In this document: piece by piece, positions 6,472 through 25,372 of the stretch | Layout of the letters: each line of letters opens with the position of its first letter | How positions within the stretch are numbered: position 1 is the stretch's first letter | Notes under the pieces: generated by a model | What the model saw: only the letters and a program-made list of their open reading frames with translations | Databases searched by the model: none | What the model was told of the DNA's origin: nothing | From: Mycobacterium simiae | GTDB lineage: Bacteria > Actinomycetota > Actinomycetes > Mycobacteriales > Mycobacteriaceae | Direction of reading: 5' to 3' | DNA: 64,000 bases | NCBI RefSeq assembly: GCF_010727605.1 | Contig: NZ_AP022568.1 | Location: 2,418,001 to 2,482,000, forward strand | Program-made: the position numbers and the translations under genes

Positions 6472-7881
6472 CTAGTTCCGCACCGGGGACCCCACCACGA
6501 TGCTGCCAACGCTGCACTCCTGCAGTTCGTCGACGCCGGTGGCGGCACCGAATGCGGCGGTGTCGCTGTATCCCTGCGCGCAGGCTCCCAGCCCCATCGC
6601 TGTTGCGGCCAGATAGATCGTCTGCATCAAGACCCCGACATCCTTGAGAATCGTTGCATAACAAATCTGTTGGTAAGTCCAGGTGATCCGGCCGGAGCGC
6701 GCGGCGATGACGACGAGTACTTGCGGCTCGGCGCCGCCGGCCAGCGTTGCCGACGCCGCCTTCATCAGCTGCGACACCGGCCGCGAATCCGCGACGGCCA
6801 CCGGGCGCAACACGTGGTCGAACGAGTCGTAGTGGTACATGGCCGGCGGCAACCCGGCGACGTTGCGCACCACCGGGTAGAGCTCGAGCTCGTAGAGCCC
6901 GCCGCTCGAGGGGTATGGACGGGAGAGCAGCTGCTCGCCGTCGCCGAGCGGGTTGATTCCGCGCGTTCGTGCTGTGCGGTAGAGCAACTCGGATAACTGC
7001 TGCACGGCCATCGGATGCGTATCGTCGAACGCCCGAGTCGACACCCGATCTTCTAGCACGGCCGTCAGTGTCGGGTCCTGCGCCCGCTTGGCGGTGAGGT
7101 CCGGGGCGAGCAGGGCGATCGGATCGCCGGGGTAGTTCACCCGGCGCGCCGGCGGTTGCGGAAATCGGCCCTTTGCCCACCTGGTCGGGCCGAAATCCGC
7201 CCAGCCAACCGTGCGCTCACCGAGGGTGCTGCGGCGGTGGAACCACAAATCCGGCGCACTCCAGGCGACCTTGTCGAACTCGTCGTCGTCGCTGCCGGCC
7301 GGAACCAGGATTGCGCTCCAGCGCAGATCCCGCAGGAAGTGCGACGCGGCAGCGCCCGTCACGCCGTGGTTGTCTTGTGTCGAACCGTCAAGTAGGGCAA
7401 GCAGATTCGCATCGTGGATGCGCAGATCACACCAGCCCAACGGATGCTCCAGCACGAAGCTGGCCGAATCATGGTGCAGCACGGCGAACTTGGACATGAT
7501 TAGGGCAGGCACCGGCTGCGATTGCGGACCCGCAGGTGGCCGGGGCCCGGGTCGGGCGAACGGCACTATGGAGTAGAGATCCCGACCGGCGTCGCGGACC
7601 GTGACGGTCAGCCAGCCCGCCGTGGTGAGCCGATCTATGAACGCACCGACATCGTCGGGGTCCGCTGAGGTGGACATCTCTGACAGCGTTGCCGGCCCGA
7701 GGTTCAACGTCTTGAGCGCCTGCAGCCGAGCGGGCGACAGTTTCGCCAGCTTCTCACTGTGCGGCGGGTCGAGCAACACCGCTCCCGTGGACGTCGTCAC
7801 GCAGGTGACACCGGAGCGGAACGCGAACCTCGTTTGCTCCGGATACGTGCATTCGGCCGCTAGCGCACCAACACGATCCAT
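6472..7881 (-). CDS. SagB/McbC-type FMN-dependent oxidoreductase of the NRPS locus
   Basis: The C-terminal half is a nitroreductase-fold SagB/ThcOx domain: DRVSTRAFDDTHPM for FMN phosphate binding, RPYPSSGGLYELELYPV, then LKDVGVLMQTIYLAATAMGLGACAQG and the closing VGSIVVGSP. The N-terminal 200 or so residues form the less conserved extension seen in SagB-like proteins. Relatives oxidise azolines to azoles, either in RiPPs or as Ox domains of NRPSs such as those for bleomycin and epothilone. The ATG at 7881 has an AAAGG ribosome site; upstream ATGs at 7902 and 7929 are possible. It follows the MbtF-like NRPS closely and is probably in its operon. No cyclisation domain is encoded nearby, so its azoline substrate would come from elsewhere, or it performs another oxidation. 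Confidence 0.85.
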   Translation of the reverse strand: MDRVGALAAECTYPEQTRFAFRSGVTCVTTSTGAVLLDPPHSEKLAKLSPARLQALKTLNLGPATLSEMSTSADPDDVGAFIDRLTTAGWLTVTVRDAGRDLYSIVPFARPGPRPPAGPQSQPVPALIMSKFAVLHHDSASFVLEHPLGWCDLRIHDANLLALLDGSTQDNHGVTGAAASHFLRDLRWSAILVPAGSDDDEFDKVAWSAPDLWFHRRSTLGERTVGWADFGPTRWAKGRFPQPPARRVNYPGDPIALLAPDLTAKRAQDPTLTAVLEDRVSTRAFDDTHPMAVQQLSELLYRTARTRGINPLGDGEQLLSRPYPSSGGLYELELYPVVRNVAGLPPAMYHYDSFDHVLRPVAVADSRPVSQLMKAASATLAGGAEPQVLVVIAARSGRITWTYQQICYATILKDVGVLMQTIYLAATAMGLGACAQGYSDTAAFGAATGVDELQECSVGSIVVGSPVRN

Positions 7882-7909
7882 CGCCCGCCTTTCGCTGTCC
7901 ATCCCAGGT

Positions 7910-10900
7910 CTATCCCAGCCCGCCAGCAATCGCGGTGACGCTGCGCCGCCAGCAGTGCGTCAGCCGGTCGATGTCGGACGCTGTGAACAGCGCCTCACTG
8001 AACAGCAGGCTGGTAACCAGTTGCGGCCCTTCCGACGTGCCACGCACGTGGGCGCTGACGTACAGAGCGAAACGCAGCGGCAGGTCCGGTTCGGCGGCCA
8101 CCGGCAATCCGTCGATGTCAGATCCCGTGAGCAATGACCAGGGCCGGTCGGTGGGGCCGGCGAGATCCAGGCGCCCCAAGTAGCTGAACATGATCTGCGG
8201 TTCCGCCGCGTTGCATAGCTCGGGAACACGGTTCACGTACCGAAGCAACCCGTAATCGAGGCCTTCGTAGGGGATCGCGGCTAGCTGCGTTACGACCGAG
8301 TCAAGCAACGCGCGCGCCGCTGCCTGGTCGCCCTCGGCCTGCTCGGTGGGTGCGGCCGGGGAGCCCGCCGGGAGCCGCACCGGAAAGGCCGTGGTGAACC
8401 AACCGACGGTGTTCGTGGTGTCGGTGCCCAACACGTCATCGAGGCGTCCGTGACCGTCAAGCGTGATCAGCGTTCCGGTGGCCGCGTCCTGTCCGCGTTC
8501 GCGCCGCCAATCGCTCACCGCCAATGTCAATGCGGCCAGCAGGAATTCATGCGGTCCGGCTTCTCGGGTAAGGCTGGCGAGCACCCGGCCGGTCTCGGCG
8601 ACCGGCGTCGCCACCTCCGCCACCTGCAAACTCGACCAGGTGTCCCGCGTCGGATCCGGATGCCGGGACCCCAACGCCGGATCGGGGCCACGCACCTGGC
8701 TGGCCCAATAGTCGCGCTGCGCCAGCACTTCCGGGGCCGACGCGCGCGCCCACATCAACTGCGACCAACGCCGGTAGGAAGTGAACTCGGGCAACGTCTT
8801 CGGCATCGCACCCAGTTGCAACGAGCTCCACGCCGCCGTGATATCACCCAGGATGGTATGCCAGGAGACGACGTCGACCGCTAGGTGGTGAATGGTGAGC
8901 AGCAACGCCTCACCGCTGCCGGCGCCGGTGAACCACACCGCGTGCAGCAGCGAGCCGGTACCCGGATCGATCTTGTCCATGATGCGCGGAGCGGCCTCGG
9001 AAATGACCGGACCGAGTGCGCGGTCGGCGGATAACTCGACACGGGTGAGGACGTCCGCGGCGGTGACCACACCGGGTTCACGAGTGAGCAAGCGCGGCCC
9101 TTCGGTCGTGTCGATCAGAACCGCGCGTAACGCATCGTGACCGTCGAGCAGCGTCTGCAACACGCATTCGACTGCCGCGGAGTCGATCTCGTCGGGCAGC
9201 CGAATCACAGCCGTATTGGTGAACCGCCGGTAGTTCCCGTACTCGAACAGCCAGGACACGATCGGCAGCGGGGGCACCATCCCGTATTCGGCGTCCGCAC
9301 GCGCCGGTTGCACGCCGGCCGCGTCAATCGCGACGGCGAGCTGGCGAATTGTCGCTGCTGCAAATACCATTCGGGGACTTATCGACAAACCGTGCCGTCG
9401 CAGTTCGTGTACCAGCGAAATCGCGAGGATGCTGTCCAATCCGAGGGAGAACAAGTCGTCATCAACGTGCGGCACCGCACCACAAAAATGTTTCGCTAAC
9501 GCTTCGCACAGCGTCCGCTCGGTGTCGGTGGACGCACCCGTTCCCTGCGTGACGCGAACGAGCGCCTCTTCGGCCCGGCGGTCCAGCGCGGCGACATCGA
9601 GCTTGCCGTTGCCAGTCACCGGGAGGCGGGGCAGCGCGAGGACCCGCGCCGGAACCATATGCGACGGCAGCTGCTCCCGCAGCACCGCACGCAATGCCGC
9701 TAGGTGATCGTCGCTTTCCAATTGTGCGACAACGAATCCGACCAATACCGCACTGCCGGCGCGGCGGACCACGGACACGGCCGCCTCACGCACCCCGGAC
9801 TGGGCGGTCAGTGCGGCCTCGACCTCGCCCAGCTCGACGCGATAGCCGCGAATCTTGACCTGACCGTCGTCGCGTCCCAGGAAGGCGAGCCCACCATGCG
9901 GTAGCCGACGCACCAGATCACCCGTGCGATACATCCGGCGTCCGCGGCGAAACGGGTCCGCCACGAACCGACTGGCGGTCATCGCGGAGCTGCCGACATA
10001 ACCTCGTGCCAGCTGGACGCCGGACAAATACAGCTCCCCGACGGCGCCACTGGGAACCGGGCGCAACGCCGGATCCAGCACATAGCAATGGGTTCCGGCG
10101 TTGGCGGTGCCGATGGTTGGTGCTTCGTGCTCCGTCACGACTGCCACCACTGCCTCGACCGTGGTTTCGGTGGGCCCGTAACAGTTGAAGATCGTGCCCG
10201 CGGACGACGACCGCAGCTGCTCCCACAGGGTGGTGTTGATCGCTTCGCCGCCCAGGGCCAGGACCGGTAGTGCACGCCGTAACAGCCCGGCGGCCCGAAG
10301 TTGCACGAACATCGACGGGGTGGTGTCGATCATGTCGATCTGGTGATCGGCCAGGCCGTGCACAAGTCGATCCGCGTCACGCATCTCGTCCGCGTCGAAC
10401 AGATGCACCCGATGGCCGTCGAGCAGCCCGACCATCGGCTGCCACGAAGCATCGAAGCTCAACGACCAGGTGTGGGCGATGCACAGCGAGCGGCCCAGGC
10501 GCGCCGATACCGGGCGGTACACCCGGTCGCGGTGGTCGGCGAAGAAGGCCAGCACCGCGCCGTTGGTGCCGACGACGCCCTTCGGTTCGCCGGTCGATCC
10601 GGAGGTGAATATGACGTAGCTACTGTGGTCCGGGTCGCGCTGAACCGTCGGTGCAACGGCGGGCCGTCGCGAAACACGCTCGGCCACAGCCTCATCGTCG
10701 ATGGCCAAGACGGGTGTGCGCGGGCCGACCAGCTCGACATGGCCCCCCTCGGTGATCGCCAAGACGGGTTGCGCCTGCCGAAAGATGGCTTCGATGCGGG
10801 TGGGCGGGAGCGTGACATCCACGGGCACATACGCCGCGCCGGCCCCGAGCACGGCCAGGATCGCCACGATCGACCGCGCCGAGCGGGGAAGCACCAGCGC

Positions 10901-12424
10901 CACCACCGATTCCGGACCCACTCCCCGCTGTGCCAGCTCCGCTGCCAGTCGGCAGGCGCGCCCATGCAATTCCGCGTAGGTGTACCGTTCGGAAGCGCCG
11001 GCGGACACGGCGACGGCGTCGGGTACCGTGCGAACCTGTCGTTCGAACATCTCCCAGATCGAGTTAGCGACGGGAACCGGTTGCGCCGCAAGATCCCTCA
11101 ATTGCGCGCGCTCGGCCGGGGTGAGCACGTCGAGCAGAGTCGGGGTGCCCTCGCCGATGTCGGGGAGTTGACGCAGCACGGCAACCATTCGTGCGCAGAT
11201 TTCCGCGGCGGGCAGAGTCGGCAGCGCTTCCTGAATCGCCTCGACGACTACCACCAGTGTGTCGCCTGCCAGGTGCGACACCCCGGTCAACGGGTAGTGC
11301 GTCAGGCTCTCCATCTGCACCGGGCAGAAGCGGGCACCGTCGGGTGTGGTGATCGGCTGGATCGCCTGATCGATCGGTGCGTTTTCGAACACGAACAATG
11401 TGTCGAAAAGCATTCCGCCACCGTGTGCACGTTGCAGGTCGGACAGGCCCACATAGCCGATGTCGCGCATTGCTGAGAGCTCACGCTGTAGTTGTGCGCA
11501 CTGCTCCACGACGGGAGTCTGGTCACTTACCCGGTGCACGACCGGCACGGTGTTGATGAACAGCCCCACCATGGTCTCGACGCCGGGGAGATCTTCGGGA
11601 CGTCCGGAAACGATGGTGCCGAATACGACATCACGACGACCGCTGAGCCGGGCGAGCACGACGGCCCACGCGAACAACACCGCGGTGTTGAGGGTGAGGC
11701 CGTTTCGGGCCGCCCACTGCCGCAGCCGGCTGGTGTCGGCCGGGGACAGCAGCAGTCCGGTCTTCTCCGGTATCGCGGTGCCCGCCGCCACCGCCTTCTC
11801 GGCCATGATCAACGGCCCGGAGACGCTCGCCAGATACTCTTGCCACCTGGCCAGCACGGCCCCTATGTCCTGTTGGGCTAACCAGACGAGGTAGTCGCGG
11901 TAGGGACGGGCGGGGGGTAGCGCCGACAGGGATCCGCCGGCACGATAGACGGCCAGCATCTCGGTGAAGAACACGGCGAGCGCCCAGCCGTCGACCAGGA
12001 TGTGGTGTGCGGTGAGAATCATCCGGCGCCGCGTCTGGCCGGGCACGGTCAGCATGACGATGCGCAGCGCCGGTCCGCGGCTCAAGTCGAAGGGGCGATG
12101 CCGTTCCGAGCGGGCGATGCGGTCGAATTCCGCTGCCGTCGCAGTTCTTTCGAACCATGGGAACTCTGCTGCGGCAGGAATGATCTGTACGGGCTTGGGC
12201 ACACCGTGATCCCAGAATGCGGCGCGCAGATTCGGGTGCCGTTGCAGCATCGCTTGCGCGCTGCGGCGCAGTAGCTCAAGGTCCACCTGCCCGTCGACGT
12301 CGAACTCGAACTGCATCGTGTAGAGGTCGACGCTGTCCTCGGACAGCCGATACAGCGCGAACAGCCCTTGCTGCAGCGGGCTGAGGGCAAGGACATCCTC
12401 GATCGACGGCGGGGCTAGCGTCAC
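7910..12424 (-). CDS. mbtF: MbtF-like nonribosomal peptide synthetase (C-A-PCP-E)
   Basis: About 1504 residues. The condensation domain has HHILVDG near residue 140. The adenylation domain shows YVIFTSGSTGEPKG, CYGPTETT, YRTGDLV and GNGKLD. The carrier site is SLGLDSI, a slight change from the usual LGGDS/LGGHS. A terminal condensation/epimerisation-type domain has HHLAVDVVSWHTILGD. By hand alignment to GrsA the specificity pocket reads D-A-Q-D-A-G-C-V-E; two acids in it suit a basic side chain such as lysine or a derivative (inference). Length and domain order match mycobactin MbtF, which adds the terminal lysine caprolactam. The GTG at 12424, behind GAGG and 7 bp after the MbtE-like stop, is preferred over an overlapping ATG at 12475. 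The symbol marks family likeness; orthology is unproven. Confidence 0.88.
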   Translation of the reverse strand: MTLAPPSIEDVLALSPLQQGLFALYRLSEDSVDLYTMQFEFDVDGQVDLELLRRSAQAMLQRHPNLRAAFWDHGVPKPVQIIPAAAEFPWFERTATAAEFDRIARSERHRPFDLSRGPALRIVMLTVPGQTRRRMILTAHHILVDGWALAVFFTEMLAVYRAGGSLSALPPARPYRDYLVWLAQQDIGAVLARWQEYLASVSGPLIMAEKAVAAGTAIPEKTGLLLSPADTSRLRQWAARNGLTLNTAVLFAWAVVLARLSGRRDVVFGTIVSGRPEDLPGVETMVGLFINTVPVVHRVSDQTPVVEQCAQLQRELSAMRDIGYVGLSDLQRAHGGGMLFDTLFVFENAPIDQAIQPITTPDGARFCPVQMESLTHYPLTGVSHLAGDTLVVVVEAIQEALPTLPAAEICARMVAVLRQLPDIGEGTPTLLDVLTPAERAQLRDLAAQPVPVANSIWEMFERQVRTVPDAVAVSAGASERYTYAELHGRACRLAAELAQRGVGPESVVALVLPRSARSIVAILAVLGAGAAYVPVDVTLPPTRIEAIFRQAQPVLAITEGGHVELVGPRTPVLAIDDEAVAERVSRRPAVAPTVQRDPDHSSYVIFTSGSTGEPKGVVGTNGAVLAFFADHRDRVYRPVSARLGRSLCIAHTWSLSFDASWQPMVGLLDGHRVHLFDADEMRDADRLVHGLADHQIDMIDTTPSMFVQLRAAGLLRRALPVLALGGEAINTTLWEQLRSSSAGTIFNCYGPTETTVEAVVAVVTEHEAPTIGTANAGTHCYVLDPALRPVPSGAVGELYLSGVQLARGYVGSSAMTASRFVADPFRRGRRMYRTGDLVRRLPHGGLAFLGRDDGQVKIRGYRVELGEVEAALTAQSGVREAAVSVVRRAGSAVLVGFVVAQLESDDHLAALRAVLREQLPSHMVPARVLALPRLPVTGNGKLDVAALDRRAEEALVRVTQGTGASTDTERTLCEALAKHFCGAVPHVDDDLFSLGLDSILAISLVHELRRHGLSISPRMVFAAATIRQLAVAIDAAGVQPARADAEYGMVPPLPIVSWLFEYGNYRRFTNTAVIRLPDEIDSAAVECVLQTLLDGHDALRAVLIDTTEGPRLLTREPGVVTAADVLTRVELSADRALGPVISEAAPRIMDKIDPGTGSLLHAVWFTGAGSGEALLLTIHHLAVDVVSWHTILGDITAAWSSLQLGAMPKTLPEFTSYRRWSQLMWARASAPEVLAQRDYWASQVRGPDPALGSRHPDPTRDTWSSLQVAEVATPVAETGRVLASLTREAGPHEFLLAALTLAVSDWRRERGQDAATGTLITLDGHGRLDDVLGTDTTNTVGWFTTAFPVRLPAGSPAAPTEQAEGDQAAARALLDSVVTQLAAIPYEGLDYGLLRYVNRVPELCNAAEPQIMFSYLGRLDLAGPTDRPWSLLTGSDIDGLPVAAEPDLPLRFALYVSAHVRGTSEGPQLVTSLLFSEALFTASDIDRLTHCWRRSVTAIAGGLG

Positions 12425-12431
12425 TCGAGCC

Positions 12432-15400
12432 TCATTGACGATTCTCCCAGGCCGCGGTGAGGTCAGCCAACGCATCGGCGCTCAGGCCCGACGTGCTCAT
12501 CGGCGTGTAGTCGCCACCGAGTGGCGAGTCCGCCTGCGCGGCAGGGGAATCTGTCGTCGCATCGACGGCTGCGGCCAGCTCACCGATCGTTGCGTGCTCG
12601 AACACCATGGCGGGGGTCAGGGCCAGTCCGCGCTCGATGACTCGTGCCGACCACTTGATCGAGATGATGCTGTCTCCCCCGAGCGCGAAGAAGTTGTCGG
12701 CCGCCGCCACGCCGCTGATTTCCAGGAGTTCTTCGAGCACCTCGATCAGGACTTCCTCGGTTTCTACGGCAGCCCGGATGATCGGTTGTGACGGCTCGCC
12801 GACCTTGGGTGTCGGTGCGGCGCGCAGCCGATCCAGTTCGGCGTCCGGCAACAGCTCCAGCGTCGACACCGAGGCGTCGGGTGTCGTCGCGAAGGCCTCG
12901 ATTGCGGCATGCACTGCATCGGCGATGAGCGCGACGGTTGCGGGGCGGTAGAGGTCGGCGTTGCCGACGACCCGCACGTCAAGGTCCCCATCGGCGGTCA
13001 CATTCATTGCGACGTCCAGATCCAACAGCGAGACGTCGAACTCCGAGCGCAGCGGGACAATCGTGGTTCCGCCTTCTTCGGTGAGGTCACGCTGCGCCAG
13101 TGTCCAGGCGTCGCCGTGGAAGTGAAGCATGTTCTGAAACAACGGGTTACGCGATCGCGCGCGGGGCGGGTTGATCGCCTCGACCAGTCGCGCGATGGGT
13201 ACTTCCTGGTGTGCGAACGCGTCGAGCACCGCGTCGCGGCTACGCATGATGACCTCGCGCAGCGAGGGCGCACCGGACAGATCGGTACGCAGTACCACCA
13301 CGTTGGCGAACAACCCGATCACATTGACCGTGCCGGGGTCGACCCGGGCCGCCACCGGAGTGCCAACGGCGATATCGTTGCCGCCGCCGAGCTTGTGCAG
13401 CACTACCGCGAGCACGGCCTGATAGACCATGAACTCGGTGGCGCTGCTGTGCTCGGCGAGTGCGGCAAGGGCTGCCCGGCGCGCCGCCGGCACCGTCACT
13501 TCGGACACTGCTGCGCGCCGGCCGAGCACCGGTGGCCGGACGTGGTCGAGTGCCACCGAGGTCTCCTCCGGCAGACCGGCCAACGCGTCGCGCCAGTACG
13601 CCAGTTCGGCTTGTCCCCATTCGCTTGCCGCGTCGAAGGCTCGGTGCTGCCAAAGTACGTAGTCGGCGTACTGGATCGGTAGCGGATCCCACTCCGGGGC
13701 TGTGCATTTCAGCTGCGCGCGGTATGCGACAGTGAGGTCTTGCAGCACGATCCGCAGTGAGGCGTGGTCGATGATGATGTGGTGCGCCAGCAACAGCAGC
13801 ACATGCCGATGCGGGTCGAGCGCCACCAGCGTTGCCCGAATCAACGGTTCGGACTCCAGCTTGAACGCGTACCGGCACAGCTCGGCCACCGTCTGATCGA
13901 GTGCGGTCGCGTCGACCGCGGTGACGGGTAGTTGCAGTTCCCTCGTCGGGCATGCCGATTGGTATGGCATGCCCTGGTGCTCCTGGATGTTCATGCGCAG
14001 CGACTCATGCCGGCTCACTACGTCGTTGAGCGCGGCGTTGAGTGCGACGGTGTCGAGCGGGCCCTCGATTCGAAGCCCGATCGCAATGTTCAGGCCGGCG
14101 CTCGGGCCTTCCATTCGGTATTGAAACCACATGGCAAGCTGGGAGTAGGACAGCGGGAGACGTTCCGGCCGAACGCATTCGACGACCGCCGGTCGCTGCG
14201 ACCGGGGCTCGGCGACGATGTCGTCGTCGTCGAGCTCGTCCAGGTCGATGTCGTAGTCGGCGAGAAACTGTGCGACGAGTGTCTCCGCTAACCCGGCTGG
14301 GGTCGGCGAGTCGAACACGGCGCGGACGCTCAGCTCAATACCGAACTCGGCGCGGATCTGTGCGATCAGCCTGGCCGCCAACAGTGAATGACCGCCCAAC
14401 TGAAAGAACGAATCCTGCGCGCCGACTCGCTCGCAGTCGAACAGCCGGGCGAAGATGGCACAGACCCGACGTTCGGTCGGTGTCACCGGCGCGTGGTAGC
14501 TCGATGCAGTGATGGGTGTGGGTGCGGGCAGCGCCCGCTTATCCAGTTTGCCGCTGTTGGTCAGCGGAATGTCGGTGATCACCCCGAATGCGCTGGGCAC
14601 CATGTATTCCGGCAGTGCCGAGGCGGCGAACTCGCGTATCTCGTCGAGATCGACGTCGATGAAGGTGTGCGCGGGTGCCTCCGCCGCCACGGGCACCACG
14701 TAAGCCGCGAGCGCGCGGCCGACGACCGTCTCCTGCGCGACAACCAGGCAATGCCGCACGGCCGGGTGGGCCGCGATCACGGACTCGATTTCGCCCAGCT
14801 CGATCCGATAGCCCCGGATCTTGACCTGCTCGTCGGCCCGGCCGATGAACTCGATGACGCCAGAGCTACTGCGGCGTACCAGATCGCCCGTCCGGTACAA
14901 CCGCATTCCTGGGTTGAATGGGTCCGCGACAAACCGCTCGGCGGTCAACCCGGGCTGGTTCAGATAGCCGCGTGCCAGTTGCACTCCGCCGAGGTAGAGT
15001 TCACCGATCACGCCCGCGGGCACTAGCTGTAATTCGGTGTCCAACACATAGGCGAAGACATTGCGATTGGGAACACCGATCGGAACCACGCCGACCCCCT
15101 GCGGCCCCTCGACCGGCATGTGGGTGGCGCAGACGACGGCCTCGGTGGGTCCATAGTGATTGCGCAGCTCGGCGTCGAAGTGTCGGGTGAACATGTCGGC
15201 CACCTCGCCGGACAGCGGCTCGCCGCCGACTGCCATGTGCCGCAGGCTATTCCACACGGCGGGCTCCGGGAGCAGCAGCAACACGTTCAGCATCGAGGGC
15301 ACCATTTGCAACACGGTGATGTGGTGGCGGTCCATCAATTCGGCGACATAGGGCATGTCGCCGAACGCGTCGGGCTTGGGCACGACCAGCTTCGCGCCGA

Positions 15401-17465: not shown

Positions 17466-17817
17466 GACTTACTTCACTCTCCGTTCATCGGCGAGAGCCG
17501 CCGCCGGTCCCGGCCGGGGCGCCCGAGCGATTCGAGTTGGCACGATGCTTGGTCGGCGATCATCCGAACGACACAACGTGCATTCCACATCCTCCAAACC
17601 TCATCCGCGGCGGGATGATGCGGCCTTCTCGCAACGGGTCGCGGCCTGAAGTTATGTTAGCCTTCGCTACGTTATCGTCTCGCGGACGCCCGCGGAACGG
17701 AGACCGGCCGGCCGGACGCTCGGTGCATGCACACGCCGGGGCAGTCGGGCCTTGGCAAGGCCGCCGGCGCGCACGCTCCGCACGCCCCCGGGCGGGATGA
17801 CAGGATCGAGGTGGTAC
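17466..17817. promoter_or_regulatory. Divergent promoter region of the NRPS and thioesterase/PKS arms
   Basis: This 352-bp gap lies between the leftward NRPS start (17465) and the rightward thioesterase start (17818). It contains the IdeR-like box at 17652-17670 and the AT-richest bases of the locus around it. The thioesterase ribosome site GAGGTGG is at 17808-17814. A longer thioesterase frame from an ATG at 17752 is possible but adds only Arg/Pro-rich residues. Confidence 0.7.
17652..17670. promoter_or_regulatory. IdeR-type iron box
   Basis: TTATGTTAGCCTTCGCTAC matches the mycobacterial IdeR/DtxR consensus TTAGGTTAGGCTAACCTAA at 14 of 19 positions, allowing either G or C at the palindrome centre. 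The left half is nearly perfect (TTA-GTTAG) and the right half keeps CTA. It sits midway between divergent siderophore-type operons, where IdeR with Fe2+ would repress both arms and iron starvation would induce them. The match was counted by hand. Confidence 0.7.
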
Positions 17818-18549
17818 ATGCCGCGCGCGCTGGGATGGATTCGGCAGTTCCACCATGCGGAGTCGGCGAAGGATACGTCGCTGCTTGTTTTTCCCCATGC
17901 CGGGGCCGGTGCGTCCGCCTACCGTGAATTCTCCAAAGTATTGAGTGAGCAGTTCGACGTCATCGTTTTCCAGTACCCCGGCCGTCAAGACCGCGCGGCC
18001 GAACCATTGCTCGGCTCAGTGGATGACATAGCGGCGGGGGCATTCCGGGAATTCTCGGAGTCGCAGCAGCACGCCGGGCGCCCGATCGTCGCGTTCGGGC
18101 ACAGCATGGGCGCCCTCGTCGCGTTCGAATTCGTGCGGCTCGCCGAAGCCAGCGGTATGGAGGTGCGGCGCCTCAACGTGTCGGCCGCGGTCGCCCCGTG
18201 CCGCGTCGCGGACAAGCCGCCCCATCCCGTCGACGACGACGGTCTCCTCGACCATCTCGCAGCGCTGCAGGGCACCGACGCGGCTGTACTCGCCAACCGC
18301 GAGATCATGAGGCTCGCCCTGCCGGTGGTCAAGGCCGACTATGCGGCCTTTGACGCGTACTCCTGCGCGCCGGGCGCCCGGACCGCCGCGCCGATTCACG
18401 CCTTGGCCGGGGATCGGGACCCGAATGTCACGCTGGGTGATCTCTACGACTGGGGCAAGCACACGGACACAGTGGAAGTCACCATGTTCGACGGCGGACA
18501 CTTCTACCTAGAATCCCACCTCGAAGCGGTCTCGAAGCTCTTGCTATGA
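17818..18549 (+). CDS. mbtT: Type II thioesterase (MbtT-like)
   Basis: The 243-residue alpha/beta hydrolase has the type II thioesterase layout: LLVFPHAGAGASAYREF at the oxyanion end, nucleophile elbow FGHSMGALVAFEF, and a catalytic His in the closing FDGGHFYLES. Such enzymes release misprimed acyl groups from NRPS/PKS carriers. The start at 17818 is chosen because GAGGTGG precedes it. The stop overlaps the ketosynthase start by 4 bp (ATGA), so the two are translationally coupled. Its place at the head of a KS, AT-KR-ACP operon opposite the NRPS genes supports a proofreading role in this pathway. The symbol marks resemblance only. Confidence 0.85.
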   Translation: MPRALGWIRQFHHAESAKDTSLLVFPHAGAGASAYREFSKVLSEQFDVIVFQYPGRQDRAAEPLLGSVDDIAAGAFREFSESQQHAGRPIVAFGHSMGALVAFEFVRLAEASGMEVRRLNVSAAVAPCRVADKPPHPVDDDGLLDHLAALQGTDAAVLANREIMRLALPVVKADYAAFDAYSCAPGARTAAPIHALAGDRDPNVTLGDLYDWGKHTDTVEVTMFDGGHFYLESHLEAVSKLLL

Positions 18550-19841
18550 GCGAGCCCGTCGTCATTTCTGGCATGGCCGTCGAGGCGCCCGGCGGAATCG
18601 ACAGCTTGGGTGGCCTATGGGCCGCGCTTGCCGAAGCGCGGGAACTCATCGGCGCCCTTCCTCGCGACCGCGGCTGGCCCATCGACGATCTTCTGGCGGT
18701 ATCGCGGCTCGACGGCTGGGGGCACGTTTGTGACGCGGGCGGATTCTTGGACGGCGCAGCGACATTCGACCCGTCCATGTTCGGCATCACCCAGCGCGAG
18801 GCTGTTGCCATGCATCCCCAGCAGCGGGTTGCGCTCCGGGTGGCATGGAAGGCGCTGGAAAACGCGGGCATCAACCCCGATGCGCTCGACGGTGCAGACG
18901 GCGGCTGCTTCGTCGGCATATCGCCGTACGCGTACGGGCCGCCCGGCACCGCCGCCGACGCTGTCAGCGGACATCGGGTCGTCAGTCTCGGACAACTCGG
19001 GGCCGCCGCACGAATCTCACACTGCCTCGGGCTCACCGGTCCGTCGATGTGTGTCGACTCCGCCTGCGCCTCGTCATTGGCGGCGCTTCAGTTGGCAGCC
19101 AATGCCGTCCGGGACGGCGAATGCGAATGGGCGCTGGCCGGCGCGGTGTGTGTGATGGGCTCACCCCTGGCCTTCTACGAGTTCGCCCGGCTCAACGCCC
19201 TTTCCGAAGACGGCCATTGCCGCGCATACGCCGACGACGCCACCGGCACGGTGTGGAGCGAGGGCGCGGGCATACTGCTCATCGAGACCGAAGCACGCGC
19301 GCGCCGGCTGGGCCATCGGGTCTACGGGCGCATTCTCGCCGTGCGCACCAACCACAACGGAAAAGGCAAGCCGATCCTGGTTCCCCGGGCGCACGCGCAA
19401 GCGCAGGTTATCCGCAGGACGCTGGATGCGGCCGAAGTCGAAGCAACCGATGTGGGAATGATCGAAGGGCACGGCACCGCCACTCGTGCCGGCGACCCGG
19501 TCGAATTGACCGCCCTATTCCAGACCTACGGGGCGTTGGGATCGCAGGCATTCCTCGGGTCGATCAAGTCGAACGCCGGACATGCCCAGGCGGCGGCGGG
19601 GATGCTGGGCCTGATCAAGGTGCTGCTGGCCGGCCAACACGGTCACATACCGCCGACCCTGTTCTCGGACAATCCCACCACAATGGTCGACTGGACCGGG
19701 ACGGGTGTGCAACTAGCCACGAAACTGCACCGCTGGGAGCCGAAGAACGGCATCCGCTACGGGGCAGTGTCGTCATTCGGCGCCGGCGGCGCCAACGCGC
19801 ACGCGCTCATCGCCATGCCTGCTGGTTCGCCGGGTGAGTAA
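18546..19841 (+). CDS. mbtC: Stand-alone beta-ketoacyl synthase (MbtC-like)
   Basis: The 431-residue single-domain type I PKS ketosynthase keeps the full triad: Cys174 in DSACASS, His309 in EGHGTATRAGD and His346 in KSNAGHAQA. M. tuberculosis MbtC has a similar length and, like this protein, precedes an AT-KR-ACP partner. Together they would extend an acyl or peptidyl starter by one C2 unit and reduce the keto group, as in the beta-hydroxybutyrate unit of mycobactin. The protein lacks its own AT and ACP. It ends with TAA directly followed by the GTG of the next gene at 19842, so they form a tightly coupled pair. Confidence 0.92.
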   Translation: MSEPVVISGMAVEAPGGIDSLGGLWAALAEARELIGALPRDRGWPIDDLLAVSRLDGWGHVCDAGGFLDGAATFDPSMFGITQREAVAMHPQQRVALRVAWKALENAGINPDALDGADGGCFVGISPYAYGPPGTAADAVSGHRVVSLGQLGAAARISHCLGLTGPSMCVDSACASSLAALQLAANAVRDGECEWALAGAVCVMGSPLAFYEFARLNALSEDGHCRAYADDATGTVWSEGAGILLIETEARARRLGHRVYGRILAVRTNHNGKGKPILVPRAHAQAQVIRRTLDAAEVEATDVGMIEGHGTATRAGDPVELTALFQTYGALGSQAFLGSIKSNAGHAQAAAGMLGLIKVLLAGQHGHIPPTLFSDNPTTMVDWTGTGVQLATKLHRWEPKNGIRYGAVSSFGAGGANAHALIAMPAGSPGE

Positions 19842-22800
19842 GTGACCATTTGTACCTATCAACTCCCGGACGGCACGATTCCCGTCCTGTTGTCGGCGAA
19901 CAGCCGGGAACTGCTGCGCGGCGAGGCGGCCGCGCTATTGTCTTATGTCGCAGACCATCCCGACGTCCAACCGCAATCCATTGCCCGGATGCTGTTCCGG
20001 ACCCGGACGGCGCGCCCGCACCGCGCCCTGGCGATGGTGGGCACCCCGGCGGACCTTCCCGTCATGCTGCGCGCGGTCACCGACGACCTCGACCATCCCG
20101 CGGTCGTCCGTACCGAAACACCCGCGACGGCCCGGCGACTTGCCTATGTCTTTCCGGGGCAAGGCATACAACGACCGGGCATGGGGCGACTGTTCTACGA
20201 CTCGGTCCCCGCATTCCGTTCCGAAGTGGAACACTGCGCCCAGGCGTTCGAGGCCCAACTCGGGCAGTCACCGCTGAATTACCTTGTCGATCAGCATATC
20301 CCGGACGACGGGAGCGCGGCGACCATCCAGGCCGCCCGGTACACCCACATGGTCGGGTTGGCCGCAATGTGGCGATCGTTCGGGATCGCCCCGGACCTCA
20401 CTATCGGGCATAGCCAAGGAGAGGTTGCCGCGGCCTATATAGCCGGCGCCGTGTCGCTGGCCGACGCCGTCACGATCGTCGGCTTACGCGCACAGGCGGC
20501 CGACGAGTTCGTACCCGGCGACTACGCCATGGCGGTCGTCGCCACCGACCGCGACACCTGCGCGGACCTGCTGGCGCGTTGCCCGGGCTGGGCGGAGCTG
20601 TCGGTGGTGAATTCGCCTGGCATATTGGGGATCTCAGGAGACCGCAAAGCAATCGAACGCATCGTGGACACGTTGACCGAGCGCGGCGTCTTCGCGCGGG
20701 TCATTGACGTCCGATTCCCCGCGCACACCAGCCGGATCGACGACGTCGGCGACGCGCTGCTCGCGGCCATGCACCGACAACTGCAGAACGCGAGCCTCTT
20801 GCAGACGACCACCGAGTGCTTCGGCTCCGCGTTCGGTGCTGCTCTCACCCCGGGCACGCCCGCCGGACCATACTGGTTTTCCAACCTGCGCAACATCGTC
20901 CGGTTCGACAAGGCAGTGGCGGCGGCGATAACCCGCGGCGCCGACACCTTCGTCGAGCTCGCCGAACACCCGACGCTGCAACTGGCGATGCACGAAAACA
21001 TCGCCGCGGCAGGGGCGGAACGCCACGCCCTGGTGGTCAGCACATCGCAACGCACGGCCACCGATTTGGCCGCGTTCACCCGCAGTCTGGCGGTGCTCGC
21101 GGTACATGACGCCGACTACTCGTGGTCGTGCCTGAGCACCGAAACGGACGGCCCCCCACCACTTCCGTTGCTCGACTTCCCCAACACCCGGATGAACGAG
21201 ACACGCCTGTGGCTGCCGGCAGCCCCAGAAGGCACCGGCAGGCGGCCAGTCCGCGACGCGTCCCCGCCCATCGCACGAGCCCAACTGTTCGCCGAGGACT
21301 GGGTCCGGTTGTCGCACCGCTCCTTGGTGCCCCCACGAACCATCGGTTTCGTCGACCACGCCCGGGCGCAGCCGGACCTGGTCGCCGCCCTGTGCGCCGC
21401 AGCGGCCGACATCGGCGCCGCCGCCCATCCGTGCGCCGCCGCCGAAAGCGCCGGTGCACACAGCGATTTCGATACGTTAGTCATCCTGCTTCCCCGATCC
21501 GCCCGCACGGACGACCGCGCCGCCGCCGACGACGTCACCGCGTTTTTCTCCGACTGCACCTGGTTAACCCGCATCGCCGGCGCCACGATCGACTGCTGGT
21601 TGGTGACAGTGACCGGTGAGATGGTGCTGGCCGACGATGCGCCGCCGAACCTGGTGCACGCCGCCGCAAGTGCGGGTTTCCGCAGCATCGGCGCGGAGTA
21701 CCCGGGCGTCGGTTTCAAGCATCTCGATCTCCCCGCCGATTTGACGACTTCGGAATCGGCGAGCGTGATTGTCGCCGCGATACATACCGGTGGTGAGCCG
21801 GAGCTGGCACGCCGGGGGGACGCCTTCTACGCCAAGCGGTTGACGAGCCGCGACATTCCGGGCCACTCCGATGCAGCCGCGCCTGATCATGTGCTGATCA
21901 TCGGCGGCACCGGGCACCTCGGCCTCGAGTTTTGTGAGCACTTTGTAGCGTGCGGAGCGCGTCTGATTACCTTGGTCAGCAGATCGGGGGAGACGGCCGC
22001 GGTCCAGGCTCGACTACGTCAAATCGGTGCCACCCACAGCAGCCGGACGCAGGTTCGGGTGACTTCCTGCGATGTGCGCGACGGGGCGGCGGTAGCGCAA
22101 CTGGCCCGCGAACAACACGACACCCCGGCGGATCTGATAATCCATGCCGCCGTGGACTATTCGGCCGCCGACTCCCCGGATCTGACCGCTGAACAACTGG
22201 ACCGGGCGCTGCACGCCAAGGTGGTCGGAATCGCGTCGGTGCTGGAAACCTATCCGCGGTCGGCGGGCTGCCGACTGTTGCTTTGCTCCTCGGTGGCGGC
22301 AACGATCGGCGGCCGCGGACAGATCAGCTACGCGGCCAGTAATCGTATGCTCGACGCCATGGCGCATCGGCTGCGCGCCCAAGGCCTGGACTGCGTTTCC
22401 CTGCAGTGGGGTCAGTGGCAGGTTCACTTAGATCTCGACGCCGACGTCATCGCGCAGTTGGCTGCCATCGGGGTCGTCCCCATGTCACCCGCTGACGCGC
22501 TCGCGGTGGGATTAACCGAACTGCGGGACAATGCCATTGTCATGGCTCTCGATCTGGATCGGGCGCGGCTGATGCTGGCGCCGTACGGCTACGGGCCGTT
22601 GTTCTCCCAACTGACCGCGCCCGCCCTCCAACCGGTCGTCGCGCTCGGGCCAACCGACGTGGCGAGCACGGTGCGCAGCATTCTGTTGGATACCATCGGT
22701 GCGGGCAGCCACATTCCGATCGACACCGATCTGCCGCTGGTGGCGATGGGCCTGGATTCGTTGCAAGCACTAGAGTTTCGGCGTCGCATCAAGATTGCGC

Positions 22801-22874
22801 TCGACTATGAACTGGATGTCGCCGACCTCCTGGGCGGTGCGTCGCTGGCGGAGATCATGTCCAGGCTGGCCTAG
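19842..22874 (+). CDS. mbtD: PKS protein AT-KR-ACP (MbtD-like)
   Basis: The 1010-residue protein has MbtD length and order. The acyltransferase begins near FPGQGIQRPGMG, with nucleophile Ser191 in GHSQGEV. Its selectivity motif reads FPAH in place of HAFH (malonyl) or YASH (methylmalonyl). A ketoreductase follows, with HVLIIGGTGHLGLEF near residue 685 for NADPH and catalytic Ser/Tyr/Asn in LLCSSVAAT and YAASNRMLDAM. The carrier domain has MGLDSLQALEF near the C-terminus. There is no KS or dehydratase, so the product after one round with the MbtC-like KS should be a beta-hydroxyacyl group. It starts at GTG 19842, abutting the KS stop. Confidence 0.92.
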   Translation: MTICTYQLPDGTIPVLLSANSRELLRGEAAALLSYVADHPDVQPQSIARMLFRTRTARPHRALAMVGTPADLPVMLRAVTDDLDHPAVVRTETPATARRLAYVFPGQGIQRPGMGRLFYDSVPAFRSEVEHCAQAFEAQLGQSPLNYLVDQHIPDDGSAATIQAARYTHMVGLAAMWRSFGIAPDLTIGHSQGEVAAAYIAGAVSLADAVTIVGLRAQAADEFVPGDYAMAVVATDRDTCADLLARCPGWAELSVVNSPGILGISGDRKAIERIVDTLTERGVFARVIDVRFPAHTSRIDDVGDALLAAMHRQLQNASLLQTTTECFGSAFGAALTPGTPAGPYWFSNLRNIVRFDKAVAAAITRGADTFVELAEHPTLQLAMHENIAAAGAERHALVVSTSQRTATDLAAFTRSLAVLAVHDADYSWSCLSTETDGPPPLPLLDFPNTRMNETRLWLPAAPEGTGRRPVRDASPPIARAQLFAEDWVRLSHRSLVPPRTIGFVDHARAQPDLVAALCAAAADIGAAAHPCAAAESAGAHSDFDTLVILLPRSARTDDRAAADDVTAFFSDCTWLTRIAGATIDCWLVTVTGEMVLADDAPPNLVHAAASAGFRSIGAEYPGVGFKHLDLPADLTTSESASVIVAAIHTGGEPELARRGDAFYAKRLTSRDIPGHSDAAAPDHVLIIGGTGHLGLEFCEHFVACGARLITLVSRSGETAAVQARLRQIGATHSSRTQVRVTSCDVRDGAAVAQLAREQHDTPADLIIHAAVDYSAADSPDLTAEQLDRALHAKVVGIASVLETYPRSAGCRLLLCSSVAATIGGRGQISYAASNRMLDAMAHRLRAQGLDCVSLQWGQWQVHLDLDADVIAQLAAIGVVPMSPADALAVGLTELRDNAIVMALDLDRARLMLAPYGYGPLFSQLTAPALQPVVALGPTDVASTVRSILLDTIGAGSHIPIDTDLPLVAMGLDSLQALEFRRRIKIALDYELDVADLLGGASLAEIMSRLA

Positions 22875-22912
22875 ACCCGCAACACCCGTCATCGGACGGC
22901 GCCGCGACTCCT

Positions 22913-23821
22913 GTGTGGCGCAAGCTCTTACCTCTGTGTGGTGACCTCCGGGCCCCGGCCGCGGTCGAGGCCACGCTGGTGGTCGCGGCGCACGCCGTGG
23001 CCAGCCGGGCACCCGAGCCGATCCTGGCCGATCCGTTCGCGGAAGTCGTGGTTCGCGGCGTCGGACAGCAACCGTTCCTCCGGATCGTGGACGGCACGAC
23101 AGACTTCGCCGAAATCGGATATGGGTGGTGCCCGCCGCTCTTTGGTATTCGTGCCAGAACGTTCGACGAATTCGTCCTTGCCGCTTGCCGCTCGCGGATC
23201 CGGCAAGCGGTACTGCTGGGTTCCGGATTGGATTGCCGGGCCTATCGGTTGGACTGGCCCACCGGGATGGCGCTCTACGAAGTCGATCAACTGACACCCA
23301 TGGATTGGAAGCCGGTCTTTCTGGCGAACTGCGGGGTTACGTCGACCGCTCGGCATCGTTGCGTCGGCGCCGACCTCCGCCAGGGGTGGCCGTCCGCGCT
23401 GTGCAAGGCGGGTTTCGACGAATCCCAACCCACGGCGTGGATCATCGAAGGATTGCTGCCCGCCCCGCCCAGGCAGATCCTCGCTTCGATCAGTGCGCTG
23501 AGCTGTCCAGGAAGCTGTCTTACCGCCGATTACTTCGAGTGCGCAGAGCCGGAGGTCGTCGATGATGTGACCGACCAACTCCACGGCTTGGACTCGAGTC
23601 TTGGGCTGCACAGCGTGGGATGCGACGTACCGCCTGTCGACCCCGCGGCGTATCTGGCCGCGCATGGCTGGATCGGGCGCAGCGCCCCCCTGGTCACGGC
23701 CTTCGCCGCCATCGGCCGGCCGGTGCCGGCCGCGATAGCGGGCCCGCAACACGGCGCCCTGCTGCGCATACTGCGGGCAACCCGCCTCGACACCGGCGGG
23801 TTGCGCACAGCAACGCGGTGA
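22913..23821 (+). CDS. SAM-dependent methyltransferase, LCMT-like
   Basis: The 302-residue protein resembles the leucine-carboxyl-methyltransferase-like family that is expanded in mycobacteria. The SAM-binding loop is VLLGSGLDCRAYRL, the acidic strand end is YEVDQL, and a later block reads WIIEGLLPAPP, matching the family's EGL.YL segment. The N-terminus (DPFAEVVV, FGIRARTFDEFV) also fits. The GTG start is 38 bp after the AT-KR-ACP stop, with no obvious promoter between, so it probably belongs to the rightward arm. It may O-methylate a carboxyl or hydroxyl of the product. The canonical mycobactin cluster has no such gene, so this may distinguish the product. Confidence 0.8.
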   Translation: MWRKLLPLCGDLRAPAAVEATLVVAAHAVASRAPEPILADPFAEVVVRGVGQQPFLRIVDGTTDFAEIGYGWCPPLFGIRARTFDEFVLAACRSRIRQAVLLGSGLDCRAYRLDWPTGMALYEVDQLTPMDWKPVFLANCGVTSTARHRCVGADLRQGWPSALCKAGFDESQPTAWIIEGLLPAPPRQILASISALSCPGSCLTADYFECAEPEVVDDVTDQLHGLDSSLGLHSVGCDVPPVDPAAYLAAHGWIGRSAPLVTAFAAIGRPVPAAIAGPQHGALLRILRATRLDTGGLRTATR

Positions 23822-23887
23822 GGGTCGACATCGGCGTTCGGCTTGGCCTGCGGCAGACCGCAATCGCGCTGCGTATACCGTCCAGGT

Positions 23888-24733
23888 ATGAATCGAGTCT
23901 CGGTAATCACCGGAGGCGCGGGTGGCATGGGCGTGGCCACAGCGAAGATTGTCGGCCGCGACCACACCGTGGTGCTGTGCGACGTGCGGCGCGACCGACT
24001 GACCGCCGCGGTGACAATCCTGAAAGACCTCGGGATGAAGCCGACCGCCGTCCACTGTGACGTCACCGATCGCGGTGCGGCCGTCGAGCTGTTCGATACC
24101 GCCCGCGCGCTCGGCCCGCTGGCCTCCGTGATCCACACCGCCGGGGTGAGCCCGAGCATGGGGCCGGCCGACTACGTGCTGCGGACCAACGCGATCGGCA
24201 CCGTCAACGTCGACGAGGCGTTCTATGCGGCGGCAGACGCGGGCGCCGCAGTGGTCAACGTCGCCTCGATGGCGGCGCATCTGCTGCCCACGGAAGTCAT
24301 CCCGACGGCACAGTTTCCGCCGGCACTGCAGGATGAGGGCGGATTTATGGACGCCATGCTGGCGTTCTGCGAAATCGCACCGGCGGAGGCGCGATCGGGC
24401 CTCGCGTATGCGGTGAGCAAGAGTTTTGTCAAGTGGTACAGCCAGTCACAGGCCGAGCGCTTCAGCGCGCGCGGCTTGCGTATTGTCTCGGTCTCGCCGG
24501 GGTCGGTCGACACCGAGATGGGACGGCTGGAAGAGCAGGCCGGAGCCGGCGCGATGGTGACCAACGCCGCCATCCCGCGCTGGGGCACGCCCGAGGAGAT
24601 GGCCGAACTGCTGGCGTTCTGCGCCAGCGACAAGGCCGGTTACCTCACCGGCACCGACATTCTCAACGACGGTGGCGTGGTCGCCTCGACGACCGAGCGT
24701 GCCAGGGCAGCCGGCGGCGAGCAGAACGGGTAG
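23888..24733 (+). CDS. Short-chain dehydrogenase/reductase
   Basis: The 281-residue SDR has the cofactor loop TGGAGGMGVATA, the active-site Ser region VVNVASMAAHLL, and the catalytic pair in YAVSKSFVKWY. The C-terminal LTGTDILNDGGV is typical of classical SDRs. The segment between Ser and Tyr is longer than usual (about 45 residues), a feature of some mycobacterial 3-alpha-hydroxysteroid-dehydrogenase-like members. I prefer the ATG at 23888 (MNRVSVITGG) over an in-frame start at 23843. It is 66 bp after the methyltransferase, so it could be the last gene of the NRPS-PKS arm or a separate unit. The substrate is unknown. Confidence 0.87.
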   Translation: MNRVSVITGGAGGMGVATAKIVGRDHTVVLCDVRRDRLTAAVTILKDLGMKPTAVHCDVTDRGAAVELFDTARALGPLASVIHTAGVSPSMGPADYVLRTNAIGTVNVDEAFYAAADAGAAVVNVASMAAHLLPTEVIPTAQFPPALQDEGGFMDAMLAFCEIAPAEARSGLAYAVSKSFVKWYSQSQAERFSARGLRIVSVSPGSVDTEMGRLEEQAGAGAMVTNAAIPRWGTPEEMAELLAFCASDKAGYLTGTDILNDGGVVASTTERARAAGGEQNG

Positions 24734-24826
24734 GCGCGCCTACCTGCTGCCGACCAGACCGGTCCGCTGCGCGCGCCGCACCGACCCAATGTCGGTGCTG
24801 TGCAACCAGTCTCGGGGACGCAGCCG

Positions 24827-25372
24827 TCAGGTCCGGCGGGCATATTCCAGCTCGGTGTACGGCCACTGGGTGACGATGCGGCACGTGGGCGAGCGAAAGT
24901 AATTGTCGCACTGTGTCCAGATCGTCCGCTCCAGGTCCAGCGACAGCCGGTCGTTGTAGCGTCTCTCCGTCTCCGGGCGCACCTCGAGGTAACCGCCTCG
25001 ACGGGCCAATCGGCTGACCGCGCTGGCCACCAGCCGCGCACCGGCCGGCAGGATGTAGACGATCGCGTCGACGTCGACGCCAGCACCGGCCGCGGTGACA
25101 ACCGACGTCTGGGTGATCCGTTCGATGGGTTCGGTGACGAGGACGACGTTATCTTGTTGTAGCGCACGGTAATACTCGTCGCCTAGCAGCACTCGCTTGC
25201 AGCGCAATGGGTAGTTTTGGCGTCAAAGCGGCACGGAGCCTTGTGTCGGCCACGGTGCGCTCCAAAAACGACCTGAGCTGGTGTGCCCGTCGTGCGCCAG
25301 CGCAGCGTCCCAGCCGCAAGCATCGGCATTCCATGCCACGGAGCACACCCGCGTGCCGAGCCGCAAATGGCG
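24827..25372 (-). pseudogene. Decayed flavin-containing/Baeyer-Villiger monooxygenase
   Basis: Pieces of a flavin monooxygenase lie in order on the reverse strand. A mid-protein piece (RLGTRVCSVAWNADACGW) comes first. After a gap and a frame change comes RSFLERTVADTRLRAALTP, then after another frame change CKRVLLGDEYYRALQQDNV through DVDAIVYILPAG. The reading then jumps straight to the C-terminal piece PETERRYNDRLSLDLERTIW and WPYTELEYARRT. The N-terminal FAD- and NADPH-binding Rossmann motifs and about 150 residues before the C-terminus are missing. The gene cannot make an active enzyme. Its upstream end fuses to a TetR fragment, which points to deletion-driven decay. Confidence 0.75.

Follow-up and report, generated by a model that had tools for sequence, protein, structure and literature searches.

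A nocobactin-type siderophore core in Mycobacterium simiae that may draw its starter enzymes from the mycobactin locus

Introduction

How could a siderophore assembly line operate when the genes for its first steps do not accompany it? This question is raised by a locus of Mycobacterium simiae that lies within a stretch of 64,000 nucleotides (contig NZ_AP022568.1, positions 2,418,001 to 2,482,000), referred to here as the window, whose own numbering is used throughout. A first-pass annotation had read the locus as a set of nonribosomal peptide synthetase (NRPS) and polyketide synthase (PKS) genes equivalent to those for MbtT and MbtC to MbtF of the mycobactin pathway, divided into two divergent arms and joined by a SagB-type oxidase and a methyltransferase. 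We propose that it is almost certainly a nocobactin-type core, composed of nbtA-nbtB-nbtC and the divergent nbtD-nbtE-sagB, and, with a probability of roughly 0.6, that this core works with MbtA and MbtB provided in trans by the mycobactin locus.

A Nocobactin-Type Core

The seven genes at the core of the annotation are of the types that had been proposed for them, as judged from Pfam, NCBIfam, and their open frames, and chance or wrongly called frames were rejected on the basis of the Pfam domains, purifying selection, and the conservation of the loci. Their equivalence to MbtT and MbtC to MbtF, however, was not borne out, as family cut-offs and trees identify them as NbtA to NbtE. The PKS encoded by nbtC (19842..22874, +), with the order acyltransferase, ketoreductase, and carrier domain (AT-KR-T), reaches 1334.1 bits against the NCBIfam equivalog for NbtC (NF037941), above its cut-off of 1150, but only 752.1 bits against that for MbtD (NF037940), below the same cut-off of 1150. 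In the trees, NbtD and NbtB of the window group with nocobactin-type genes of other mycobacteria and of Nocardia, while the MbtE and MbtC rows, some of which come from the same genomes as the Nbt rows, form one side of a branch with support of 95 to 100. The first NbtD and NbtB trees contained wrongly framed sequences with very long branches (MAG_bog and the ketosynthases of M. helveticum and N. thailandica), and the NbtD tree was repeated from tblastn segments with MAG_bog (L032) left out. Given the failed MbtD cut-off and the separate position of the window genes in the trees, we reject a rearranged canonical mbt cluster. What survives of the earlier reading is a mycobactin-related siderophore locus; what does not is the view of divergent copies of MbtC to MbtF, since the trees put the genes on branches separate from MbtC and MbtE.

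The two arms flank a gap of 286 bases between open frames (17466-17751). On the right arm (+), a type II thioesterase, a ketosynthase, and the PKS are followed by a methyltransferase and an SDR-family reductase. The thioesterase gene nbtA (17818..18549; PF00975, GHSMG motif) lies in a frame open from 17752 and probably begins at the ATG at 17818, the M. sherrisii thioesterase having 242 amino acids, and nbtB (18546..19841; PF00109/PF02801, C-H-H residues) encodes the stand-alone ketosynthase, grouped with Nbt and apart from MbtC. The left arm (-) holds two NRPS genes and the oxidase gene. Pfam, motifs, and the tree support nbtD (12432..17465), whose product of 1677 amino acids contains condensation (C), adenylation (A), carrier (T), and epimerisation (E) domain types in the order C-A-T-C-T, that is, the first lysine module and a second condensation domain. 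The product of nbtE (7910..12475), with 1521 amino acids, is C-A-T-E, a terminal lysine module with an epimerisation domain; it is 87% identical to M. sherrisii NbtE and contains the motifs HHILVDGW, HHLAVDVVSW, and DGHGR. Thus, the gene types given earlier stand, while the NRPS domain order had to be corrected, and the corrected order matches that described for NbtD and NbtE in PMC7413640.

The last gene of the left arm, sagB (6472..7881, -; open frame to 7929), encodes a SagB/ThcOx-type oxidase with PF00881 and PF22767 that scores 142.5 bits against TIGR03605 (cut-off 78.4) and is therefore a SagB-type azoline oxidase by that family. Its probable start is the ATG at 7881, giving 469 amino acids as in P0001, to which it is 97% identical, and its PDB relatives are CyaGox (5lq4, E 3.6e-51), McbC, and BmdC. 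The enzyme is predicted to convert an oxazoline ring to an oxazole. The divergent arms and the oxidase are both present, but neither is the unusual feature that it had been taken for. They are ordinary for the mycobacterial form of this family, because nbtA-B-C also diverge from nbtD-E wherever another mycobacterial locus covers both arms and because sagB occurs in nocobactin clusters. In Nocardia (19 loci fetched), nbtA-B-C instead share a strand with nbtD-E.

Relatives and the Missing Starter Half

One genome scan gave 37 related loci. The nearest, L001 of M. sherrisii, is syntenic with the window, with core identities of 80-95% (NbtD 87%, ketosynthase 95%, NbtC 80%, SagB 85%) and five common left-flank genes that are 86-92% identical, which places the window in a close relative of M. 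sherrisii. Together with L005, whose contig ends inside nbtD, these two loci constitute what we call the sherrisii group. The orientation of sagB with nbtE is found in the window and L001, and sagB is convergent in the other mycobacterial loci mapped. Another M. simiae genome (G009) carries a different locus (L022), 64% identical, with nbtT, nbtG, and an nbtF-type gene; its nbtH match (C34:4189-4731) contains one in-frame TGA, and nbtH may be broken in that assembly.

The first-pass annotation had also noted that no salicylate ligase, cyclisation NRPS, or lysine hydroxylase accompanies the locus, and tblastn over the 64 kb confirmed this. Queries with NbtF and NbtT from L019 gave paralogous matches only (25-34% identity), and those with NbtG and NbtH gave none at E 1e-3. 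A complete nocobactin pathway, comprising NbtF, NbtT, NbtG, and NbtH or TerH, is thus not found in these 64 kb, in which a TerH-type formyltransferase was not sought by sequence. An AMP-ligase of 542 amino acids at 36743-38371 was rejected as the missing MbtA, as its main matches are 26% to NbtT and 30% to MbtA. Six mycobacterial loci (L019, L023, L025, L033, L035, and L036) do have nbtT, nbtG, nbtH, and nbtF around the core. Conversely, nbtF, nbtG, and nbtT were not found in the stretches read for nine loci, which we call core-only: the window, M. sherrisii, sp. 1100029.7 (to the contig end), L004, L029, L049 (M. colombiense-like), L051, L052 (whose contig ends 0.8 kb beyond nbtC), and L053.

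The core-only state has arisen more than once. A single clade of all nine loci was rejected in approximately unbiased (AU) tests run on a quick tree (p 1e-66), as was one clade of the sherrisii group and the M. colombiense-like loci (p 0.0017), and when complete loci are grouped in the NbtD tree, the core-only state needs four changes, three of them forced by starred branches.

One Starter Half per Genome

If the core does not bring its own starter enzymes, which others could serve it? The possibility that MbtA and MbtB are used from elsewhere, raised in the first-pass annotation, is backed by M. sherrisii, which has one MbtA and one MbtB, with the mbt locus on another contig than the core. 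Its only salicyl-AMP ligase and only cyclisation NRPS lie in this mbt locus (L038, L039; A, B, thioesterase, C, D, E, F, G), its one salicylate synthase over the cut-off is on the same contig, and mbt also holds the sole NbtG/MbtG match of the stretches read. Neither M. sherrisii nor sp. 1100029.7 has an NbtF-type NRPS or a second ligase; both have only MbtB (52-53% to NbtF) and MbtA beside mbtD.

The same economy was observed more widely. Exactly one ligase (541-596 bits) was found in each of the 48 Mycobacterium genomes scored, together with exactly one MbtB/NbtF-type NRPS (at least 1063 bits, the next at most 585), counts for which a part of the candidates per genome, the best ones, was scored, with the top match clear of the rest. 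In the first 17 genomes, the ligase scores 550-596 bits, with the next at 250; each has one such NRPS and likewise a single salicylate synthase that passes the cut-off. A single ligase and a single NRPS were also found in each of the 31 further genomes. These comprise all 21 genomes with an NbtC match among the 98 described below that were not in the first 17 (in G061 the match is partial and falls under the cut-off), along with 10 chosen from the 47 MbtD-only genomes of that set.

Both back halves may nevertheless occur together. Among 98 Mycobacterium genomes drawn, 25 have NbtC above the cut-off, and 9 of these 25 also have an MbtD-like PKS; combined with 10 of the 17 genomes above (including G003, whose MbtD match is partial and lies where a contig ends), and with 4 shared between the two sets, this makes 15 distinct dual genomes. 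Seven keep an MbtB-type starter beside mbtD, and eight have the NbtF type. In the five of these eight that were mapped (G017, G008, G010, G023, and G086), mbtC, D, and E, and F and G where reached, are present without mbtA or mbtB (L040-L043, L057, L058).

Several genomes have other arrangements. G056 carries two different nocobactin cores (L051 and L052) and a mycobactin locus, and the genome has only one ligase and one cyclisation NRPS; in the NbtD tree, L051 falls together with plasmid pMAH135. G055 (L059/L060) has MbtA-, MbtB-, MbtE-, MbtF-, and MbtG-type genes and, about 10 kb on, a nocobactin-type thioesterase, ketosynthase, and NbtC, with no MbtD match; the PKS half seems to have been swapped, which would make this a hybrid cluster. 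NbtC and an MbtB-type NRPS also share a contig in G095, G049, and G078, the hybrid layout having been mapped in G055 only.

These observations bear on the possibility that nothing is borrowed and that a complete nocobactin pathway is split over two places, with nbtF, nbtT, nbtS, and nbtG elsewhere in the window genome. Splitting is normal in Nocardia, where nbtF lies apart in almost 45% of cases (PMC7413640), some mycobacteria hold the ligase 154-160 kb from nbtC (G066, G102, and G105), and the evidence on the window genome beyond its 64 kb comes from relatives. Nevertheless, the two nearest relatives have no NbtF-type starter to place elsewhere, and we consider a split pathway unlikely.

A Putative N-Terminal Helix Shared by NbtD and MbtE

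A short N-terminal stretch of NbtD (RLELLRRRITENGL; 17391..17432, -) is probably helical and could be an acceptor docking element. NbtD carries the corresponding pattern in all 9 core-only loci, in all 14 other loci from mycobacteria, and in 17 of 18 from Nocardia. MbtE has it in 10 of 10 mbt-only genomes and in all 7 dual genomes that keep mbtA and mbtB, but in 0 of the 8 dual genomes that lack them. One relaxed pattern, picked after sight of the sequences because a stricter earlier one was too narrow, served for all sets, from which L007 and L034 (Skermania; no start motif), L032 (broken frame), and the hybrid G055 are excluded; MbtE of L057 (G023), which has no C-domain start motif, was scored as having lost the helix from its N-terminal sequence.

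On the donor side, the C-termini of NbtF and MbtB resemble each other, from which we infer that the NbtD/MbtE helix and the NbtF/MbtB C-terminus may form an acceptor-donor docking pair. As the helix is kept in core-only NbtD but lost in MbtE that has no partner, core-only nocobactin lines should still be fed, and, MbtB being the only candidate seen in their genomes, MbtB would be the donor. The mbt loci of the eight dual genomes (L040, L042, L043, L057, L058, L076-L078) are back halves without mbtA and mbtB, with the MbtE helix lost in 8 of 8 and the first C-domain motif intact in MbtE of L040 and L043; such back halves may be relicts or may have another function.

Intactness, Selection, and a Possible Iron Box

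The divergent promoter region contains an IdeR-box-like palindrome (17652..17670, no strand assigned) with five mismatches to the 19-base IdeR consensus. Five mismatches were reached in 1 of 200 mono-nucleotide shuffles of the gap, and an equally good match occurred in 16 of 100 whole-window shuffles, so that the palindrome of the window, taken by itself, is weak evidence. A site with four to five mismatches is present in all 18 mycobacterial intergenic regions tested, as TTAGCGAAGGCTAACATAA in 13 of them, and the locus may be under the control of iron.

Could the core, having lost its starter half, simply be decaying or silent? The absence of nbtF, nbtG, nbtT, and nbtH would fit this, as would the surroundings: among the other window proteins scanned, which represent a part of the open reading frames (PrpD, LysR, IclR, a cation exchanger, a P-type ATPase, LacI, and others), no link to siderophores was seen, nor a siderophore transporter, at which no search was aimed. 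Moreover, an FMO-like gene of about 1065 codons, which adjoins the SDR gene in M. sherrisii (L001:388-3585) and sp. 1100029.7 (L079:508-3501; 72% alike), is reduced in the window to a C-terminal fragment (about 24743-25271, -; 59% over 219 residues). The core itself is otherwise. All its reading frames are open, and the catalytic motifs sought are all present (ketosynthase C-H-H, AT GHSxG, KR YxxxN, and carrier serines), with HHxxxD kept in both C domains of NbtD and in the C and E domains of NbtE. The ratio of nonsynonymous to synonymous substitution (dN/dS) between the window and L001 is 0.08-0.24 for sagB, nbtA-E, and the SDR gene, and 0.12-0.24 for five flanking genes, so that purifying selection acts on the core as it does on the flanks; the NbtE and CMD matches of L005, a paralogue or chance, were not used in this comparison. 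Added to this, the IdeR-like box is kept, and so is the NbtD helix, unlike in MbtE of genomes without mbtA and mbtB, and we regard decay as quite improbable. A salicylate-free lipopeptide, for which either another loading protein or NbtD's own first C domain would provide the start, would suit the lack of a starter gene in the window and the accessory methyltransferase and SDR of this lineage, but it is very improbable, as the core retains an azoline-type oxidase, the first C domain of NbtD is intact, and genomes with complete loci have an NbtF starter.

A Proposed Shared Starter Module

The best reading is that MbtA, MbtB, and MbtG serve both lines, the locus being the extension, lipid, and release half of a siderophore line that would have lost its own starter half. 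By analogy with published nocobactin and mycobactin schemes, MbtI would make salicylate, MbtA would load it, and MbtB would condense it with serine or threonine and cyclise the product to a phenyl-oxazoline, which could pass to MbtE for mycobactin or, through the similar N-terminal helix, to NbtD. NbtD would then add (N-hydroxy)lysine, with MbtG supplying the N-hydroxylation; NbtB and NbtC would build and reduce a hydroxy fatty acid, which the second C domain of NbtD would join as an ester; NbtE would add and epimerise the terminal lysine, closing it to a caprolactam; and SagB would oxidise the oxazoline to an oxazole. In a fuller form of this proposal, to which we give even odds, one cell would make mycobactin, which bears its lipid tail on lysine, alongside a nocobactin-type siderophore, which bears it on the PKS hydroxy acid, both from a single phenyl-oxazoline pool, owing to the like helices, and other lineages would have chosen the reverse, losing mbtA and mbtB and leaving a mycobactin back half uncoupled, its docking helix gone.

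Several observations weigh against a shared starter. The mbt locus was seen in the genomes of relatives, and the window genome, which is known from 64 kb, is taken to resemble M. sherrisii in its starter genes. The completeness of the surveyed genomes is not stated, and only the best candidates per genome were scored. Nor does one starter per genome hold everywhere: M. avium TH135 carries a chromosomal MbtB together with an NbtF-type NRPS encoded by pMAH135 (PMC4324632, Table 2). The hand-over from MbtB to NbtD is argued from sequence, the helix has a generic look, a single event may account for six of the eight MbtE losses, which have one form in common, and MbtE of G086 keeps the first half of the helix. 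As for hydroxylation, the FMO-like gene of L001 weakly matches a lysine-hydroxylase family (23.5 bits, cut-off 21.3) and could offer another route there. Finally, nbtH was not found in the sherrisii group. Elsewhere in their genomes, M. sherrisii and sp. 1100029.7 hold only relatives of 33-37%, so that the lysine would either be acylated by an MbtK-like enzyme or stay without an acyl group; MBT Ab of M. abscessus is described without that acyl group (PMC9505556).

Accessory Genes

Beyond nbtC lie the genes for an LCM/TIGR00027 methyltransferase dependent on S-adenosylmethionine (22913..23821, +; PF04072, TIGR00027) and an SDR-family reductase (23843..24733, +; PF13561/PF00106; 88% to L001 and 80% to L005). 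This block (22913-24733) follows nbtC in the window and in L005, where the methyltransferase has the same place (64-65%), and L001 has the SDR gene alone. Apart from the window and L005, no mycobacterial stretch mapped has the methyltransferase, L001 included, and some of these stretches end soon after nbtC. Seven genomes hold 8-28 family members each at E 1e-15, and the methyltransferase is a variable member of this large paralogous family. Its absence from L001 and its many paralogues led us to drop it as a signature of the system; it is indeed present, as had been noted, but it is an unreliable companion, shared with one further locus only.

Relevance and Known Systems

As relatives hold both back halves with one starter per genome, the sharing of a module between assembly lines becomes testable, as does a shift of docking specificity with gene loss. 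If the proposal is true, one MbtA-type ligase would be the control point for both siderophores, which matters for drug work, and annotation is affected as well, since genes of this kind have been presented as additional mycobactin genes (PMC4324632). Searches of the open-licence PMC literature turned up no paper on starter sharing between nocobactin-type and mycobactin loci with reciprocal loss, and the available part of a transposon study of M. kansasii (PMC10470612) contains no statement on mbt genes. Nocobactin clusters, their sagB genes, their splitting, and NbtC on mycobacterial plasmids are already known.

One close likeness is to the nocobactin NA cluster I (nbt) of Nocardia farcinica and the sagB-bearing Nocardia subfamilies (PMC7413640), which share NbtA, NbtB, and NbtC, the C-A-T-C-T order of NbtD, and the C-A-T-E order of NbtE. 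These clusters also have SagB beside the core, NbtC over the NCBIfam cut-off, and pathways split over two loci, and in Nocardia I, III, and VII, sagB goes with almost exclusively phenoxazole products (PMC7413640). The window differs in having no adjoining nbtF, nbtG, or nbtH; in its divergent arms, with SagB co-oriented with nbtE and the methyltransferase and SDR genes after nbtC; and in that its relative's genome offers mycobactin-type starter genes and no second nocobactin cluster.

The mycobactin mbtA-J locus, the predicted supplier of MbtI, MbtA, MbtB, and MbtG, follows the same assembly logic, and its MbtE shares the N-terminal helix pattern with NbtD, but its PKS, ketosynthase, and NRPSs are on separate branches, and no SagB was found in the mbt stretches mapped. 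The "mycobactin" genes of M. avium plasmid pMAH135 (PMC4324632; named NbtC in PMC11877719) resemble the window in nbtC-B-A, the divergent nbtD-nbtE, and sagB, although there they are plasmid-borne, with an nbtF-type NRPS, an nbtH-type GNAT gene, and sagB convergent with the NRPS genes.

In M. abscessus, mbtT (MAB_2121c) lies beside mbtE (MAB_2122), both with iron boxes, the ligase gene mbtA (MAB_2247c) is apart by locus tag, and MBT Ab carries a long alkyl chain in its PKS-made part (PMC9505556). It is described there as one unusual mycobactin, and our comparison is with that description. The reason for two MbtE-like genes, MAB_2122 and MAB_2248, was left open in PMC9769883, and by the layout described there, MAB_2119-2124 looks like a nocobactin-type core with the ligase MAB_2247c apart. 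Bythrow et al. (PMC9505556) suggested that mycobactins and nocardial-type siderophores represent two separate lipid-tail strategies; in relatives of the window, the back halves for both lie in one genome and may be fed by the same starter enzymes.

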